A stretch of DNA of 64,000 bases, from NCBI RefSeq assembly GCF_902168135.1, contig NZ_CABHOL010000045.1:1-64000 (forward strand), given 5' to 3'. Shown here piece by piece: positions 27,322 through 45,357 of the stretch (within the stretch, counting starts at the first letter, position 1; the number at the start of each line of letters is the position of its first letter). The DNA is from an uncultured Fluviicola sp. Lineage in GTDB: Bacteria > Bacteroidota > Bacteroidia > Flavobacteriales_D > Crocinitomicaceae. The notes under the pieces were generated by a model. It worked only from the letters and a program-made list of their open reading frames with translations, had not been told where the DNA came from and made no database searches. Position numbers and translations under genes: made by a program.

Positions 27322-27690
27322 TTTAGGATTTCAAGGATTAGGAGGGTAAGACGGAATATTACAGAATCATGTGTGTTACTTAGAATTTTGGATATTAGAG
27401 GTTTATAAAAATAAACTTCAATTTTTAGGACTCCAACCACTGTTCGTAATTTAGCGAACACGCGAACACGCGAATTCTAAAATTCTAAAACCATTTCCAA
27501 TACCCATAAACGATAAAATTGATAAGGGCTTCACAGTCTTCTTTCTATCCCGATAGCTCAGGAAGCGATTCTCAATTTTTAATTTTTTCAAAAAGAATTT
27601 GCATTTATCAATTTCTTTTAAGAATCTTTGTGCCGTCGCTGAAGCTATTGCACAAGCGATGTGCCGTAATTCTAAGCGAGAAATACAAAT
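27322..27690. other. Intergenic region with degenerate repeats
   Basis: No coding frame is convincing. It contains a 41-bp dispersed repeat (27438-27478), AT-rich words such as AATTCTAAAATTCTAAAA, a small dyad ATCCCGATAG near 27548, and AATCTTTG at 27623-27630, one mismatch from a -7 box and the best candidate start of the riboswitch transcript. Confidence 0.4.
27438..27478 (+). repeat. 41-bp dispersed repeat, copy 1
   Basis: Begins CACTGTTCGTAATTTAGCG and ends GCGAATTCT. Its reverse complement occurs at 63321-63361 with the same length and about 34 matching positions. Both copies follow a gene stop in intergenic DNA. Confidence 0.65.
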
Positions 27691-27830
27691 AGTTTATACA
27701 GAAGAGGCGAGAGACGGACTTTTTGACCCTCTGGCAACCAACTTTAAGTCACGACTGTAAACGTCGGGATTGGAAAACCGGTGCCAACTTCCGAGTTTGA
27801 TGCAAAGTGTATCGGACGAATATAAATAGT
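27691..27830 (+). ncRNA. SAM-I riboswitch aptamer
   Basis: Conserved core words are present in order: AGAGG (27703-27707) pairing with CCTCT (27728-27732), GGCAACC (27733-27739), and GGTGCCAACTTCC (27780-27792). P4 is CCGA/TCGG (27791-27794, 27812-27815) with inner TTTG/CAAA. P1 can form between TTTATA (27693-27698) and TATAAA (27821-27826). It precedes the methionine operon, the expected client. The switch presumably turns off expression when S-adenosylmethionine is plentiful. No strong terminator lies between it and metX, so control of translation or of the leader ORF is more likely. A covariance-model scan would settle the boundaries. Confidence 0.85.
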
Positions 27831-27835
27831 GTGTT

Positions 27836-27937
27836 ATGAAAAGAGCAAACGTTTACAATTCTAAGTATCATCCGGGCCTTCGGATAAAATCCCTTTATTT
27901 TTCTTTCGATCAAATGTGTTGTTGTTGCTGTTGTTAA
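27836..27937 (+). CDS. 33-codon leader peptide ending in six consecutive cysteines
   Basis: The ATG lies at 27836, six nt beyond the aptamer, and the frame stays open to TAA at 27935-27937. The peptide has a basic N-terminal half (MKRANVYNSKYHPGLRIK), then SLYFSFDQM, then six Cys codons (TGT TGT TGT TGC TGT TGT) and stop. An internal ATG at 27914 would encode only Met-Cys6. Such a run is typical of attenuator peptides that sense charged tRNA, here tRNA-Cys. The stop is 42 nt before metX. A weak hairpin ATCCG-N6-CGGAT (27870-27885) lies inside the ORF. Function is inferred. It could instead be a small metal-binding peptide. Confidence 0.6.
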   Translation: MKRANVYNSKYHPGLRIKSLYFSFDQMCCCCCC

Positions 27938-27970
27938 TTCCTCAGTCAATTCTAGTTTTTATTTACAACA
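27929..27970 (+). promoter_or_regulatory. Possible pairing of the Cys-codon run with the metX start region
   Basis: TGTTGT within the last Cys codons (27929-27934) is complementary to ACAACA (27965-27970), and flanking AA/TT can extend it past one bulge. The second partner lies 9 nt before the metX ATG. A ribosome on the Cys codons would prevent this pairing. The stem is short, so this is a proposal, not a demonstrated element. Confidence 0.3.
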
Positions 27971-28046
27971 TATTTTTTCATGTCAACAAGTTATTCGGTT
28001 CGCGAAAGCGAAAAGGCATTACAGCCATTGCAACATATTTTTTCAT
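27966..28046 (+). repeat. 16-bp direct repeat spanning the metX start
   Basis: CAACATATTTTTTCAT occurs at 27966-27981, where its last AT begins the start codon, and again at 28031-28046 inside the gene. Exact repetition 65 bp apart at a translation start is unusual and may reflect a duplicated regulatory site or a small duplication. Confidence 0.6.
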
Positions 28047-29035
28047 TGGGTTCTGAATTCCGATTAGAGTCGGGAAGCAAACTTTCAAACCTGTCTTTGG
28101 CCTACCAAACCTGGGGCCAGTTGAACGAGGAAGGTTCAAACGTAATTTGGGTGTGCCATGCGCTTACGGGAAATCACCGTGTGCAGGAGTGGTGGGGCGA
28201 TTTATTCGGCGAAGGAAAGTGCTTCGATCCGGAAGAGTATTTTATTGTTGCCGTAAATGTTCCGGGAAGTGCGTACGGATCAACAGGTCCTTTGAGTGAA
28301 GAACTTCCGTATGATGAGAAATTTGATGCATTTCCGGTGCTGACCATTCGCGATATGGTGAATGGGTTGGAACTGGTCCGGAAAGAACTGAATATCGAAA
28401 GCATCCATGTTTTGATCGGGGCATCCCTGGGCGGACAGCAGCTCCTGGAATGGTCTTTAATGATTCCGGAAAAAATTGAGCATATCATTCCAATTGCAAC
28501 CAATTTAAAACATTCACCTTTCGGAATAGCTTTCAACGAAGCTCAACGCATGGCCATTCAGGCAGATCCGACCTTTTATCAGAAACAACCAAATGGAGGG
28601 GAAGCAGGTATGAAAGCTGCTCGTGCAATTGGAATGCTGAGTTACAGAACTTATGAAGGGTATAAAATCACTCAAAGTGAAGAGAACGATGAGGCATTTG
28701 ACCATTTCAAAGCAAGTTCCTATCAAAAATACCAGGGCGAAAAGCTGGCGAAACGCTTCAATGCATTCAGTTATTGGTACCTGTCGAAAGCAATGGATTC
28801 GCACAATGTATTCAGGGGGCGTGACGAAAAAATAGTGGAACGATGTCGCATGCCTGCTTTGGTGATCGGGATTGATTCGGATTTATTATTCCCGATTTCA
28901 GAGCAGGAAGAACTAGCAGATAAACTGCAAAACGCGAGACTTATCCGTTTGCAATCCGATTTTGGGCACGACGGATTTTTGGTAGAAACTGAAACATTAA
29001 CAAACTACATTAAACAATTTTTAAAGATTAACTAA
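27980..29035 (+). CDS. metX: Homoserine O-acetyltransferase MetX
   Basis: 351 residues. Acylates homoserine as the first committed step of methionine synthesis. It is an alpha/beta hydrolase-fold enzyme with SLAYQTWGQ near the N-terminus, VCHALTGNH, the nucleophile elbow GASLGG (Ser149), the catalytic Asp in VIGIDSDLLFP and His in FGHDGFLVE. Most family members have GGSMGG at the elbow, so GASLGG is a mild variant. The N-terminus is some 20 residues longer than typical, but no later ATG is well placed. First gene of a tight four-gene operon under the SAM riboswitch and Cys6 leader; the next gene starts 1 bp after its stop. Confidence 0.93.
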   Translation: MSTSYSVRESEKALQPLQHIFSLGSEFRLESGSKLSNLSLAYQTWGQLNEEGSNVIWVCHALTGNHRVQEWWGDLFGEGKCFDPEEYFIVAVNVPGSAYGSTGPLSEELPYDEKFDAFPVLTIRDMVNGLELVRKELNIESIHVLIGASLGGQQLLEWSLMIPEKIEHIIPIATNLKHSPFGIAFNEAQRMAIQADPTFYQKQPNGGEAGMKAARAIGMLSYRTYEGYKITQSEENDEAFDHFKASSYQKYQGEKLAKRFNAFSYWYLSKAMDSHNVFRGRDEKIVERCRMPALVIGIDSDLLFPISEQEELADKLQNARLIRLQSDFGHDGFLVETETLTNYIKQFLKIN

Positions 29036-29036
29036 G

Positions 29037-30284
29037 ATGAAAAAACAACTAACAATAGGATTATTTGGTTTCGGATGTGTAGGAACCGGTTTATACGAAG
29101 TATTGAACAAAACAACGCTTCTTCAGGCATCGATCAAACACATTGTCATTAAAGATCTGAGCAAAAAACGGATTATTGATTCCGGCTATTTCAGCACGGA
29201 TGCAAATCGCATTCTAAATGATGAAGAGATTAATGTAGTTGTAGAATTGATCAACGATTACGAAGCCGCCTATGAAATTGTGACACGCGCTCTGAGAGCT
29301 GGAAAACATGTGGTTTCAGCCAATAAAAAATTGATCGCCTATTACCTGGATGAGTTGGTTTCCCTGGCGAAAGAGAATAATGTTTCTTTCCTGTATGAAG
29401 CTTCGGTAGGAGGTTCTATTCCGATTATCCGCAACCTGGAAGAATACTACAATAACGATTCCCTGTCAAATATCAACGGGATCGTGAATGGTACAACAAA
29501 CTATATTCTGACAAAAACCGGTGAAGGCGAGTCTTTCGAAGAAGCGCTTAAAAATGCCCAGGACCTTGGTTTTGCAGAGCTAGATCCAACTTCTGATGTG
29601 GATGGTTTCGACGCTAAATACAAACTGGTATTGCTGCTCAAGCATGCTTTTGGCTTTACCGCTAAACAAGATGAGGTTTGGAATTACGGGATCCGCCAAT
29701 TGAAAGACTGGGATGCGGTTTACGCACGTGAAAAAGGATTGAAAATCAAATTGCTGGCTTTCGGAACACGCATCAATAACCAGGTGATTGGTTTTGTGGC
29801 CCCGCATTTGATCCCGAATAACCACTTCGCATTCAATGTAGAAAATGAGTTCAATGCGGTAGTAGTAGAAGCTTTGTTTTCCGACAAACAATTATTTCTT
29901 GGGAAAGGTGCGGGAAGCCACCCCACAGCAAGTGCTGTACTTTCTGATATCTCGGCTTTGCAATTCGATTATGCATACGAATACAAGAAATCAAAAACCG
30001 AAGAAATTCTGAATTTCGAGAATGATTTCTCGCTAAAAGTCTACCTGAGCGCAACAACCCAGGAAAAACTGGACCAGGTCGAATTTACAGAAACACTGGA
30101 AACATATTCCGGACAATCACACAGTTATAAGATCGGAATCGTTACGTACTCCGAAATTCAAAAACTGGATTGGAACGATGTTTCAGATTATTTCCTGGCT
30201 GTAATTCCCGACAGTGTGACCTTAAACGATAAATCCCGGTTTTCAGCTTCAGGAACCACGGAATTAATAGAAGAATTGTCATGA
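29037..30284 (+). CDS. hom: Homoserine dehydrogenase
   Basis: 415 residues. Reduces aspartate semialdehyde to homoserine with NAD(P)H, supplying the MetX substrate. The Rossmann motif is GLFGFGCVGTGLYEVL, with HVVSANKKLIA, EASVGGSIPIIRNL, GIVNGTTNYILTK, and AELDPTSDVDGFDAKYK, which carries the catalytic lysine region. The C-terminal 90 residues do not look like a complete ACT domain. Having its own hom inside the met operon, apart from any ThrA fusion elsewhere, suggests a dedicated methionine supply. Its last codons overlap the next gene by 4 bp. Confidence 0.94.
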   Translation: MKKQLTIGLFGFGCVGTGLYEVLNKTTLLQASIKHIVIKDLSKKRIIDSGYFSTDANRILNDEEINVVVELINDYEAAYEIVTRALRAGKHVVSANKKLIAYYLDELVSLAKENNVSFLYEASVGGSIPIIRNLEEYYNNDSLSNINGIVNGTTNYILTKTGEGESFEEALKNAQDLGFAELDPTSDVDGFDAKYKLVLLLKHAFGFTAKQDEVWNYGIRQLKDWDAVYAREKGLKIKLLAFGTRINNQVIGFVAPHLIPNNHFAFNVENEFNAVVVEALFSDKQLFLGKGAGSHPTASAVLSDISALQFDYAYEYKKSKTEEILNFENDFSLKVYLSATTQEKLDQVEFTETLETYSGQSHSYKIGIVTYSEIQKLDWNDVSDYFLAVIPDSVTLNDKSRFSASGTTELIEELS

Positions 30285-30694
30285 AATTAGCATTGAAACT
30301 AGTAGAATCTCCCTTTGTATTGGAAGCAACTAACGAGTCCGGGATTTCCATAAAAATGGACGCAACAGAGAAAATAGGAGGTAAGAATAAAGGAATGCGC
30401 CCGATGGAAGTACTGGCAAGTTCTCTTGCCGGATGTATGTCAATTGATGTGCTGTTGATCCTGCAAAAACAACGTCAGGAAGTGACCTATTACGAAGTAA
30501 GCATTGATGCTAACCGTAAAGATGCAGTTCCGGCTTCTTTTGAGATCATCCATTTGGTATTCGTTTTTAATAAAGAAGTAGACCTTGAAAAAGCAGCGGC
30601 GGCAGTGAAACTGAGCCACGAAAAGTATTGTTCGGTTTCCGCTTCCCTAAATCCTGAAATAAACATTCAAACAGAAGTCAGACATCAATCATGA
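30281..30694 (+). CDS. OsmC-family protein
   Basis: 137 residues with the OsmC/Ohr fold pattern: MRPMEVLASSLAGCMSIDVLLILQKQRQ, VSIDANRKDAVPASFEIIHLVFVF, and KLSHEKYCSVSASLNPEI. The two conserved cysteines (Cys in AGCMS and in EKYCSV) match the peroxidase redox pair of OsmC/YhfA-type proteins. It is translationally coupled on both sides (4-bp overlaps), so it belongs firmly to the methionine operon. A role in handling sulphur or thiol-peroxide stress there is inference. Confidence 0.88.
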   Translation: MKLALKLVESPFVLEATNESGISIKMDATEKIGGKNKGMRPMEVLASSLAGCMSIDVLLILQKQRQEVTYYEVSIDANRKDAVPASFEIIHLVFVFNKEVDLEKAAAAVKLSHEKYCSVSASLNPEINIQTEVRHQS

Positions 30695-31857
30695 GTAATT
30701 ACAGAAACGAAACTTTAGCGATCCGGATACAAAACGAACGCTCACAAGAAGCGGAACACAGTGTTCCTTTATATTTAACCTCCAGTTATGTATTTGACGA
30801 TGCAGAGCAAATGCGGGCGGCATTTTCAGACGAAATTGAAGCAAATATCTATTCCCGCTACTCCAACCCGAATGTAGACGAATTACTGGAGAAAGTAGCG
30901 CTACTGGAAGCCGGGGAAGCGGCCTGGGCAACAGCAACAGGAATGGCGGCGGTTTTTACCACTTTTGCGGCACTGCTCCAAAAAGGCGATCACATTGTTT
31001 CCTCCAAATCTGTCTTCGGCTCTACACACCAGTTATTTGTAAACATTCTTCCGAAATGGGGAATTACAACCACTTATGTTGATGCAATCGACTACGATGG
31101 ATATGAAAAAGCAATCAAACCGGAAACGAAAATAGTTTACATTGAAACACCTTCCAATCCGGGCCTGGATATTATCGATATCAAAAAATTGGCTGCAATT
31201 TGTAAAGCAAAAAATGTTTTGTTGGTGGTCGATAATTGTTTTGCAACACCGGTTTTGCAACAGCCTTTGAAATTGGGTGCTGACATTGCGATCCATTCCG
31301 CTACCAAATACATGGATGGGCAGGGAAGAGTACTCGGAGGATTGATCGTGTCAACCAAAGATATCATCGCACAAATTCAGGGATTTGCCCGTCACAGCGG
31401 ACCTGCATTGTCACCTTTCAATGCCTGGATACTTTCGAAGTCACTGGAAACTTTGCATTTGAGAATGGAGAAACACTGTTCACAAGCATACGAGATTGCC
31501 CTGCGATTGGAAAAAAACGAACAGGTAGCCTGGGTAAAATATCCCTTCCTGGATTCACATCCGCAGCAGGCAATTGCGAAAGACCAAATGAAATTTGGAG
31601 GAGGAATTGTCACCTTCCAGGTCAAAGGAGGTTTGGAAGCAGGAAGAAGATTCCTCGATAAGCTGAACTTATTTTCCCTGACGCCAAACCTGGGTGACAG
31701 CCGCAGTATTGCAACACATCCGGCATCAACAACACACAGTAAATTGAAACCGGAAGAACGTGAAGCAGTTGGCATCTCCGACGGATTGGTAAGGTTAAGC
31801 ATCGGATTGGAGCACCTGGAAGATATTTGGGAAGATATTGAACAAGCGCTTTTATAA
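30691..31857 (+). CDS. metZ: O-acetyl/O-succinylhomoserine sulfhydrylase (MetZ type)
   Basis: 388 residues, PLP-dependent, of the cystathionine gamma-synthase family. The PLP lysine is Lys206 in HSATKYMDGQGRVLGG. That GQGRVLGG text is characteristic of MetZ sulfhydrylases. Other segments are SRYSNPNVDELLEKVALLEAGE, YIETPSNPGLDIIDI and LTPNLGDSRSIATHPASTTHSKL. With MetX upstream, the likely reaction is O-acetylhomoserine plus sulphide to homocysteine (direct sulfhydrylation). Last gene of the operon, followed by a palindromic terminator. Confidence 0.92.
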   Translation: MSNYRNETLAIRIQNERSQEAEHSVPLYLTSSYVFDDAEQMRAAFSDEIEANIYSRYSNPNVDELLEKVALLEAGEAAWATATGMAAVFTTFAALLQKGDHIVSSKSVFGSTHQLFVNILPKWGITTTYVDAIDYDGYEKAIKPETKIVYIETPSNPGLDIIDIKKLAAICKAKNVLLVVDNCFATPVLQQPLKLGADIAIHSATKYMDGQGRVLGGLIVSTKDIIAQIQGFARHSGPALSPFNAWILSKSLETLHLRMEKHCSQAYEIALRLEKNEQVAWVKYPFLDSHPQQAIAKDQMKFGGGIVTFQVKGGLEAGRRFLDKLNLFSLTPNLGDSRSIATHPASTTHSKLKPEEREAVGISDGLVRLSIGLEHLEDIWEDIEQALL

Positions 31858-43784: not shown

Positions 43785-43972
43785 AATATGTAGTTCGTTG
43801 CAAATATATGGATTCCTTGAATGTACATACCTGCAGCTTTAAAGTCGTTGCAGGAATATCTAAAACCGTGCCGGAGTATTCTGACCACTGACTTTTAAGC
43901 ATTCCAAAACGGTACATTTCACACTTTCTTCCGTCACTTTTGCATTTTACCTGTTGAATTTTGAATTAAAAC

Positions 43973-43980
43973 TATCTTTG
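43973..43980 (+). promoter_or_regulatory. -7 box TATCTTTG for the CBS-type gene
   Basis: TAnnTTTG match 15 nt before ATG 43996, with TTG at 43954-43956 spaced by 16 nt. It lies inside the upstream frame and supports the later start. Confidence 0.55.
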
Positions 43981-43995
43981 TGTAAAATTCAGTAC

Positions 43996-45357
43996 ATGAA
44001 AGTTTATAACAACATATTAGAGACTATCGGGAATACGCCTTTAGTCCGACTAAACAAGCTTACCAAAAACTGTAAGGCAACTGTTTTGGCGAAAGTTGAA
44101 ACAACCAACCCGGGGAACTCTGTAAAAGACCGTATGGCGGTGAAAATGATTGAAGATGCTGAGAAAAACGGACTGTTGAAGCCGGGCGGAACAATTATCG
44201 AAGGAACTTCCGGGAATACAGGAATGGGATTAGCACTTGCAGCTATCGTAAAAGGTTATAAACTGATTTGTGTATTGAACGACAAGCAGTCGAAAGAGAA
44301 AATGGATATTTTGCGTGCTGTTGGAGCTGAAGTGGTGGTTTGCCCTACAGCTGTTGAGCCTTCTGACCCGCGTTCTTATTATTCTGTTTCTAAAAGACTG
44401 GCGAAAGAAATTCCGAATTCCTGGTATGTTAACCAATACGATAACCTGTCGAACCGTGTCGCTCATTATGAGCAGACAGGACCTGAGATCTGGGAACAGA
44501 CTGACGGGAAAGTAACACACTTTATCGTTGGAGTTGGAACAGGAGGAACTATTTCCGGAGTTGGAAAATATTTGAAAGAGAAAAACCCGAATATCAAGAT
44601 TTGGGGAATCGATACCTACGGATCTGTTTTCAAGAAATACAAGGAAACAGGGATTTTTGACGAGAACGAGATCTATCCTTACATCACGGAAGGAATCGGG
44701 GAGGATATTCTTCCTGCAAACGTGGATTTCGATGTCATTGATTTGTTTGAGAAAGTAACGGATAAAGATGCTGCGGTTTATACACGCCGCCTGGCACGTG
44801 AAGAAGGAATTTTCGTTGGAAACTCTGCAGGTGCGGCTATCGGTGGGTTGCTGCAGTTACAGGACCAATTAACAGAAAATGATGTGGTTGTTGTATTATT
44901 CCACGATCATGGAAGCCGTTATGTCGGTAAGATTTTCAACGACGATTGGATGCGTGAGCGCGGATTCCTGGAAGAAGAGTTCAAAACAGCAGAAGACGTG
45001 ATTGCACGTCATGCAGACCTGCCTTTGGTGACTTTGTATTCCGAAGAGCTGGTTTCACATGCCATTATGAAAATGCGCAAATACAACATTTCCCAAATTC
45101 CGGTTCTGAGAGACGGTGAATTGGTTGGTTCTTTGAATGATTCCCAGGTTTACCAGTTATTAGTCGATAATCCTGCATTGAGAGACACACCGATTTCGAA
45201 GATCATGCAGAAACCTTTCCCGGTTGTTCCCGGAACAGCGAAATTGGAAGACGTAGCGAAATTAATCAACGAGCAAACTCCGGCAGTAATCGTGGAGCGT
45301 GCAAACGGAGATAAGAAAATCCTGACTCGCCAGGATGTAATTGCATCATTGGCATAA
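43996..45357 (+). CDS. Cystathionine beta-synthase-like PLP enzyme with two CBS domains
   Basis: 453 residues from the ATG at 43996; the frame opens earlier at 43954. The PLP fold type II domain has the lysine in GNSVKDRMA (Lys44), the phosphate-binding GTSGNTGMG and GVGTGGTISGVGKYLK. The C-terminus is a Bateman module: one CBS motif at about 340-390 (VSHAIMKMRKYNISQIPVLR) and another at about 400-453 (ISKIMQKPFPVV). It makes cystathionine from serine and homocysteine, or acts as a cysteine synthase. Together with the met operon it links serine, cysteine and methionine. AdoMet or adenylate sensing by the CBS pair is possible. Confidence 0.9.
   Translation: MKVYNNILETIGNTPLVRLNKLTKNCKATVLAKVETTNPGNSVKDRMAVKMIEDAEKNGLLKPGGTIIEGTSGNTGMGLALAAIVKGYKLICVLNDKQSKEKMDILRAVGAEVVVCPTAVEPSDPRSYYSVSKRLAKEIPNSWYVNQYDNLSNRVAHYEQTGPEIWEQTDGKVTHFIVGVGTGGTISGVGKYLKEKNPNIKIWGIDTYGSVFKKYKETGIFDENEIYPYITEGIGEDILPANVDFDVIDLFEKVTDKDAAVYTRRLAREEGIFVGNSAGAAIGGLLQLQDQLTENDVVVVLFHDHGSRYVGKIFNDDWMRERGFLEEEFKTAEDVIARHADLPLVTLYSEELVSHAIMKMRKYNISQIPVLRDGELVGSLNDSQVYQLLVDNPALRDTPISKIMQKPFPVVPGTAKLEDVAKLINEQTPAVIVERANGDKKILTRQDVIASLA

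Follow-up and report, generated by a model that had tools for sequence, protein, structure and literature searches.

A SAM-I riboswitch aptamer followed by a cysteine-rich leader ORF ahead of metX in Fluviicola: a putative two-input mRNA leader

Described leaders and the layout of the locus

Leader ORFs with cysteine codons have been predicted ahead of cys operons in Actinobacteria (Seliverstov 2005, PMC1262725), and cysteine-responsive translation attenuation is attributed to mycobacteria (Canestrari 2020, as cited in PMC13236596 and PMC9094748; these statements rest on the accessible parts of the sources). The locus described here resembles the actinobacterial leaders in having a short ORF with a Cys run near its stop, ahead of sulfur genes. 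However, those leaders precede cys operons or cbs, with no riboswitch mentioned in the accessible part of PMC1262725, whereas here SAM-I lies upstream and metX/metY downstream. The polycysteine short ORFs of mycobacteria are leaderless, as far as the available text goes, while the present AUG is preceded by a 138-nt aptamer, if transcription starts upstream of it (the RNA start is unmapped).

The aptamer matches the SAM-I (S-box) class, RF00162, over its full length, but the first start codon after it is that of a Cys leader and not that of the regulated enzyme, and no terminator-like site follows. A translated leader controlled by a riboswitch, with the downstream gene dependent on it as is proposed here, is found in the B12 riboswitch and uORF of ppe2 in Mycobacterium tuberculosis (PMC11260477). 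The available sections do not present that uORF as sensing an amino acid, and the downstream gene there is translated through termination-reinitiation, a difference from the leader proposed here. Also as proposed for the present locus, the tandem attenuators of Salmonella mgtCBR (PMC3641672) bring two signals into one leader that has one ORF rich in the codons of an amino acid. They differ, according to the accessible portion of that paper, in responding to ATP and proline, in having two ORFs, in using transcription attenuation and in that the signals are independent and additive. The LEU element of Actinobacteria also has a leader codon run predicted to pair with the gene start region but, in the part of PMC1262725 that was available, it involves leucine, a pseudoknot and Shine-Dalgarno pairing, without a riboswitch.

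A flavobacterial transcriptome study reports signs of attenuation by leader peptides upstream of amino-acid operons (PMC9723704), and short ORFs of Bacteroides thetaiotaomicron are reminiscent of leader peptides (PMC7366714); the accessible parts of both papers name neither Cys leaders nor SAM riboswitches. The SAM-I riboswitch and the Cys leader are each of a known kind. Searches of the open-access literature (supplements not covered) turned up no description of the two being coupled.

The stretch of DNA analysed (the window) comprises 64,000 nt from an uncultured Fluviicola sp. of the Crocinitomicaceae. Its relevant features are as follows.

27691-27828, + strand: SAM-I riboswitch aptamer (RF00162)
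27821-27828, + strand: 3' strand of P1, overlapping the A-rich region before the leader AUG that is taken, by analogy with Flavobacterium johnsoniae, to drive initiation (RF00162 alignment)
27836-27937, + strand: leader ORF, 33 codons plus stop (ATG 27836, TAA 27937), its position conserved in the family
27870-27885, + strand: hairpin H1, located within the leader ORF, with a stem of 5 bp and a 6-nt loop (covariation)
27912-27922, + strand: 5' arm of hairpin H2, in the Gln-Met-Cys-Cys codon region (predicted fold)
27917-27934, + strand: six Cys codons, TGT TGT TGT TGC TGT TGT (sequence; shuffle count)
27965-27975, + strand: 3' arm of H2, with 4 nt between it and the metX AUG (predicted fold)
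27980-29035, + strand: metX, homoserine O-acetyltransferase (TIGR01392, 330 bits, curated cut-off 500; PRK00175, 305, cut-off 331)
29037-30284, + strand: homoserine dehydrogenase (PRK06349, 343.8 bits, cut-off 205)
30281-30694, + strand: OsmC-family protein (PRK10738, 71.8 bits, cut-off 138)
30691-31857, + strand: MetZ-like sulfhydrylase (PRK08133, O-succinylhomoserine sulfhydrylase, 529.1 bits, cut-off 522)
43954-45357, + strand: cystathionine beta-synthase-like gene, outside the leader (TIGR01137 as best family, 487 bits, cut-off 510.25)

The initial annotation had recognised a SAM-I riboswitch from its core motifs, and an RF00162 scan confirmed it (27691-27828, + strand; 46.9 bits, where the gathering score is 44.4; E 1.4e-07; full length, model positions 1-108). 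The aptamer is SAM-I by its match in sequence and structure; an effect of SAM on gene expression is inferred. The 33-codon frame ending in six Cys codons was also found as described, with the translation MKRANVYNSKYHPGLRIKSLYFSFDQMCCCCCC, and the next gene is metX, with 42 nt between the leader stop and its start at 27980, in agreement with the stated location ahead of a methionine operon. Only the spacing between aptamer and ORF needs correction, from six to 7 nt (27829-27835). The Cys run had been called very unlikely by chance, which is borne out by counts: the window has a single instance of six Cys codons plus a stop and 100 shuffles have none, and five Cys codons followed by TAA or TGA occur once in the 4.38 Mb genome. 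No NCBIfam family matched the leader peptide (three leaders tried). The second SAM-I site of the genome is on another contig and, by motif call, of the metH type.

An OsmC-family gene (30281-30694) lies within the Met operon of the window. Separately, in three loci of order-mates (L005, L030 and L063) a gene with an OsmC-like start was seen by eye directly after SAM-I.

Conservation in the family and occurrence beyond it

A census of the RF00162 hits listed for the window's family covered 134 loci. Motif calls place 76 of them ahead of metH, leaving 58 non-metH loci in 51 genomes; the gene types metX, metY and metH are scripted motif calls, not family searches. An ORF with a Cys-rich end (ATG start, at least three Cys in the last 13 codons, within 190 nt of SAM-I) follows 37 of the 58 non-metH loci, compared with a mean of 0.6 and a maximum of 2 in 30 shuffle sets. 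At the metH-type SAM-I loci of the family the count was 0/76. A lack of conservation of the ORF and its Cys run beside SAM riboswitches, which would have refuted the proposal of the initial annotation, is therefore not what this comparison found. Conserved in the family are the position of the ORF, its Cys-rich end and its link to SAM-I loci of the metX and metY types but not of the metH type. Counting against this, 21 of the 58 non-metH loci fail the Cys test.

Under a stricter rule for leaders (18 to 60 codons, AUG at -3 to +20), the same 58 loci fall into four groups: a Cys leader is present in 36, an ORF containing fewer than three Cys in 11, metX itself at +8 in five and no ORF in six. 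One of the last six, L322, does carry a Cys leader, whose AUG lies before the called aptamer end. In the five loci L094, L284, L304, L305 and L307 the metX start stands 8 nt past the SAM-I aptamer, in the leader's place. One genome, G253, has metX at +8 together with a separate metY that has SAM-I and a Cys leader.

The bodies of the leader peptides diverge in the family and the Cys-rich end is kept. Among 47 leader ORFs, runs of at least three identical residues consist of Cys 37 times and of other residues five times, and 90 of 94 TGY triplet runs are in the leader frame. The number of Cys ranges from 3 to 8 with varied spacing and with interruptions by Met, Trp, His and others, and there are no further conserved residues. 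In the 33 loci used for structure tests (32 family loci and L092 from another family; L320, with a Cys leader but no gene position, was left out) the Cys codons are 118 TGT and 68 TGC, in 25 distinct strings. As the Cys runs are in frame, mix TGT with TGC and occur as many distinct strings, selection, judged from sequence, is on the codons or residues and not on a repeat. A chance or microsatellite origin of the Cys run was ruled out by the shuffles, the genome-wide rarity, the frame bias and the mixture of TGT and TGC. Since a short ORF with a cluster of regulatory codons precedes the operon, and the cluster is kept while the rest diverges, these two sequence criteria for a leader-peptide attenuator are satisfied, a response to charged tRNA-Cys being inferred. 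A MAFFT alignment of eight genus members, in which the Cys run is off by one codon in two, was not used for any count.

Outside the family, occurrence is patchy. SAM-I with a Cys leader was found in one of 23 loci of order-mates (L092 of G054). The class and phylum set consisted of one locus each from 52 of 59 genomes, mostly with lower-scoring aptamers; 51 were judgeable (L371 was excluded) and three of these have a Cys-rich ORF (L339, L344 and L349). A further check of 57 high-scoring class and phylum loci, 56 of them located, gave a Cys-rich ORF in one (L125). The phylum scan covers best matches only and is no census; 29 of its loci were used, and only in this high-scoring check. For 19 of 80 named metX loci a SAM-I core lies within 700 nt, and seven of the 19 also have an ORF with a Cys-rich end, including those of Mucilaginibacter (L152 and L156) and Olivibacter (L143), with L139 being the locus of the genus member G008 again. 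A stricter test within 450 nt gave 4/19 with SAM-I against 3/61 without (p 0.051), so the named metX set is weak on its own. Beside SAM-I, a short Cys-tailed ORF is thus conserved within the family (37/58 non-metH loci) and recurs only patchily beyond it (1/23, 3/51 and 7/19).

The elements occur in two layouts, fused as in the window or, in another family (f15), in series, with the aptamer followed by a terminator-like hairpin and then a Cys leader (L381 and L125). At L381 the Cys leader precedes cysH (PF01507) and the next two genes look like cysD and cysN by eye; at L125 the gene after the leader is, again by eye, metY-like. An ungapped five-Cys pattern matched in 64 of 299 order-level genomes, and 25 of the 29 five-Cys loci inspected (L034-L062) have no SAM-I core upstream.

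At two named metX loci, L150 and L166, SAM-I is followed by short ORFs that contain few Cys codons, MNKTTFHRIPMCMCMQ and ...SIICCMRMPILGN (by eye), and that were uncounted in the Cys-run tests. A third SAM-I site, in G237 (contig C33; L310/L383) and G271 (contig C50; L315), is followed by a 12-codon ORF, MKKRMCCCCYEK, and then by a gene with PF00208, a Glu/Leu/Phe/Val dehydrogenase domain. This ORF could be a Cys leader in minimal form, at a gene where one would not be expected. Two different genomes carry an identical leader ORF beside SAM-I (L323, G185:C37, and L324, G296:C71), and one of these assemblies may hold contaminating contigs.

Methionine and cysteine supply

MetX and MetZ would together make homocysteine, and the genome appears to make cysteine from it. 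The only strong cysKM-like gene of the genome (44017-44925) lies within a 490-aa frame whose best match is cystathionine beta-synthase. No dedicated cysK was found in the genome, and the search for cysE in the genome gave a best score of 47.5 bits, below a cut-off that is strict (passed by 0/20 relatives and 8/14 controls). There are two strong PF01053 genes, encoding MetZ and an enzyme on contig C25. From this gene content (no cysE or dedicated cysK found, a cystathionine beta-synthase-like gene and two PF01053 genes) homocysteine is probably the source of cysteine as well as of methionine. Reverse transsulfuration is likely but not certain, because for the C25 enzyme a cystathionine gamma-synthase model ranks first (532 bits, cut-off 513) and a gamma-lyase model second. 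The operon may therefore feed both methionine and cysteine.

Presence of the leader is associated with the absence of a dedicated cysK. A Cys leader was found in 34 of 42 family genomes without dedicated cysK and in three of nine with it (p 0.008; 51 genomes, not corrected for ancestry). One genome in this test, that of L322, was set by hand, and weaker cysKM-like frames of 306 to 317 aa scoring 235 to 274 bits (G116, G021, G035 and G031) were counted as cysK-negative where included.

One genus member, G009, has an adjacent pair of cysK and a cysE-like gene (C6:316124-317513). The leader of G009 has only a three-Cys run at its end and gives no pairing signal (z +0.11).

Leader initiation, pairing over the gene start and proposed control

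The leader AUG lies 6 to 10 nt past the aptamer in 35 of 36 loci, the offsets being +7 (17 loci), +8 (11), +9 (4), +10 (2), +6 (1) and +14 (1). Initiation without Shine-Dalgarno sites in Flavobacterium johnsoniae is influenced by structure and requires A residues at positions -14 to -11, -6 and -3 (PMC6847099, in the part available). Across 43 leader AUGs, A is present at -12 in 83% and at -11 in 86%, and this region falls within the 3' strand of P1. The requirement for a riboswitch-controlled uORF, that the aptamer be placed so as to control initiation, is satisfied on geometry only, by the 35/36 offsets and the overlap of P1 with the A-rich region. Because AUG spacing is nearly constant, it suggests that the aptamer may gate translation of the leader. 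The five family loci with metX itself at +8 fit an aptamer that controls whatever starts there.

Two hairpins follow. In H1, four of the five pairs change on both sides over seven genomes, with a covariation score of 0.895 compared with at most 0.114 when slid (G003, with a 5-nt loop, is outside this count). A stable leader body in general has no selection support, the mean z against codon shuffles being -0.18 over 33 loci, seven of which have z below -1. H2 comes from the fold of 27905-27990 (-13.9 kcal/mol, z -2.40) and the seven other close genus members are predicted to form the same helix; G005 keeps the layout with a different sequence in each arm. Over 33 loci, pairing of the Cys region compared with shuffled intergenic DNA had a mean z of -1.45, against -0.02 for the rest of the leader as control. 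Averaged by genus (17 genera) the values are -0.98 and -0.27, and several genera show none.

Folds with a ribosome placed on the RNA gave mixed results. When the RNA past the aptamer is folded with a ribosome placed on the first Cys codons, the gene start opens at 9 of 12 loci in the genus and at only 6 of 21 elsewhere. At the six responsive loci outside the genus (in G035, G017, G116, G257, G278 and G179) a ribosome at the stop leaves the start closed, as attenuation needs. Two results count against the model: within the genus the metX start opens to the same extent whether the ribosome sits at the stop or on the first Cys codons (0.55, 0.56), and when the window leader is folded with its aptamer the opening is lost (0.36 free, 0.31 on Cys). 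A role of H2 in the genus is, on these predicted folds, probable. Stalling at the Cys codons is likely, as an inference made in the absence of ribosome data.

The reading proposed here, with a probability of roughly 0.65, is a two-input mRNA leader in which SAM acts through an aptamer that gates leader translation and cysteine acts through a ribosome stall that controls H2 and the metX start. With SAM bound, a stable P1 would mask its 3' strand and thereby the A-rich region on which initiation at the leader AUG is taken to depend, and the leader would therefore be little translated; at low SAM it would be translated. With plentiful charged tRNA-Cys, the ribosome would clear the Cys run and H2 would re-form over the metX start, as inferred from pairing and position. 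With scarce charged tRNA-Cys, it would stall on the first Cys codons, covering the 5' arm of H2 and leaving the metX start open. Outside the genus this second step would differ, with some loci pairing with the gene start and the metY-type loci having an open start and separate hairpins. Expression would be highest when SAM and cysteine are both short. If homocysteine feeds methionine and cysteine, both end products would thereby report to the feeding step. A strict gate requiring both to be low would starve the cell of methionine at high cysteine, which counts against it; a graded gate, probably with SAM first and cysteine as an amplifier, fits the physiology better. The parts, their conservation and the gene association were observed, while translation, stalling, gating and polarity are inferred without functional data. 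The earlier interpretation, that the operon reads SAM through the aptamer and charged tRNA-Cys through the leader, is supported by conservation and physiology, its function being inferred with no expression, ribosome or ligand data.

The aptamer and the Cys leader could instead be two separate controls in series, both acting without the aptamer gating leader translation. This is unlikely, though not to be neglected: the elements are physically apart in family f15, but in the fused layout AUG spacing is nearly constant and P1 lies within the initiation region. The interval 27400-28050 also has no terminator-like site (the search covered the window only), so that one criterion for an attenuator of the transcription type, an intrinsic terminator between leader ORF and gene, is not fulfilled. 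The same absence argues against leader translation deciding whether RNA polymerase continues, by transcription attenuation or Rho-dependent termination, and not whether metX is translated. That search did not include Rho sites, and Rho was proposed for the Cys leaders of Actinobacteria (PMC1262725, accessible part). Seven metY-type loci, whose gene starts are open in all ribosome positions and preceded by strong separate hairpins, would suit transcription control, but H2 covers the metX start, and this explanation is given only small weight.

The remaining explanations concern what is sensed at the Cys-rich end. It is improbable that the nascent peptide senses thiols, metals or redox and arrests the ribosome, with charged tRNA-Cys not being the signal. 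The Cys-rich end is indeed the conserved element, and sequence cannot separate tRNA charging from peptide chemistry; however, the variable number and spacing of Cys, the interruptions, the lack of other conserved residues and the association with Met and sulfur genes all speak against it. Still harder to sustain is the view that UGU-rich RNA matters rather than codons, or that the run is a chance repeat. UGU repeats are part of the helix in the genus, but set against this are the reading frame (90/94), the share of TGC (68/186 codons), the shuffles and the fact that the run is the sole one of its kind in the genome.

Whether the two-input leader stands for a wider class in Bacteroidota, in which a metabolite riboswitch gates an amino-acid-sensing leader ORF to combine SAM with Cys-tRNA and the P1 strand doubles as an initiation enhancer in a phylum without Shine-Dalgarno sites, is about an even bet. 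If the two-input reading is right, the leader would be a naturally occurring RNA device for two signals, with a riboswitch and a leader-peptide attenuator combined at the branch point that feeds methionine and cysteine. It would also allow a direct test of riboswitch control of initiation in a phylum without Shine-Dalgarno sites and would direct attention to a large number of small ORFs next to SAM riboswitches in Bacteroidota. Natural controls are available in loci whose Cys run has been lost and in those where metX itself starts at +8.

The intergenic regions of the seven metY-type loci are too divergent for their alignment to be interpreted. In five metY-type loci from several genera (L091, L095, L299, L303 and L321) the hairpins share a GGGCCC apical segment on otherwise different stems, and in L314, also metY-type, the apical variant is GGGCCG.
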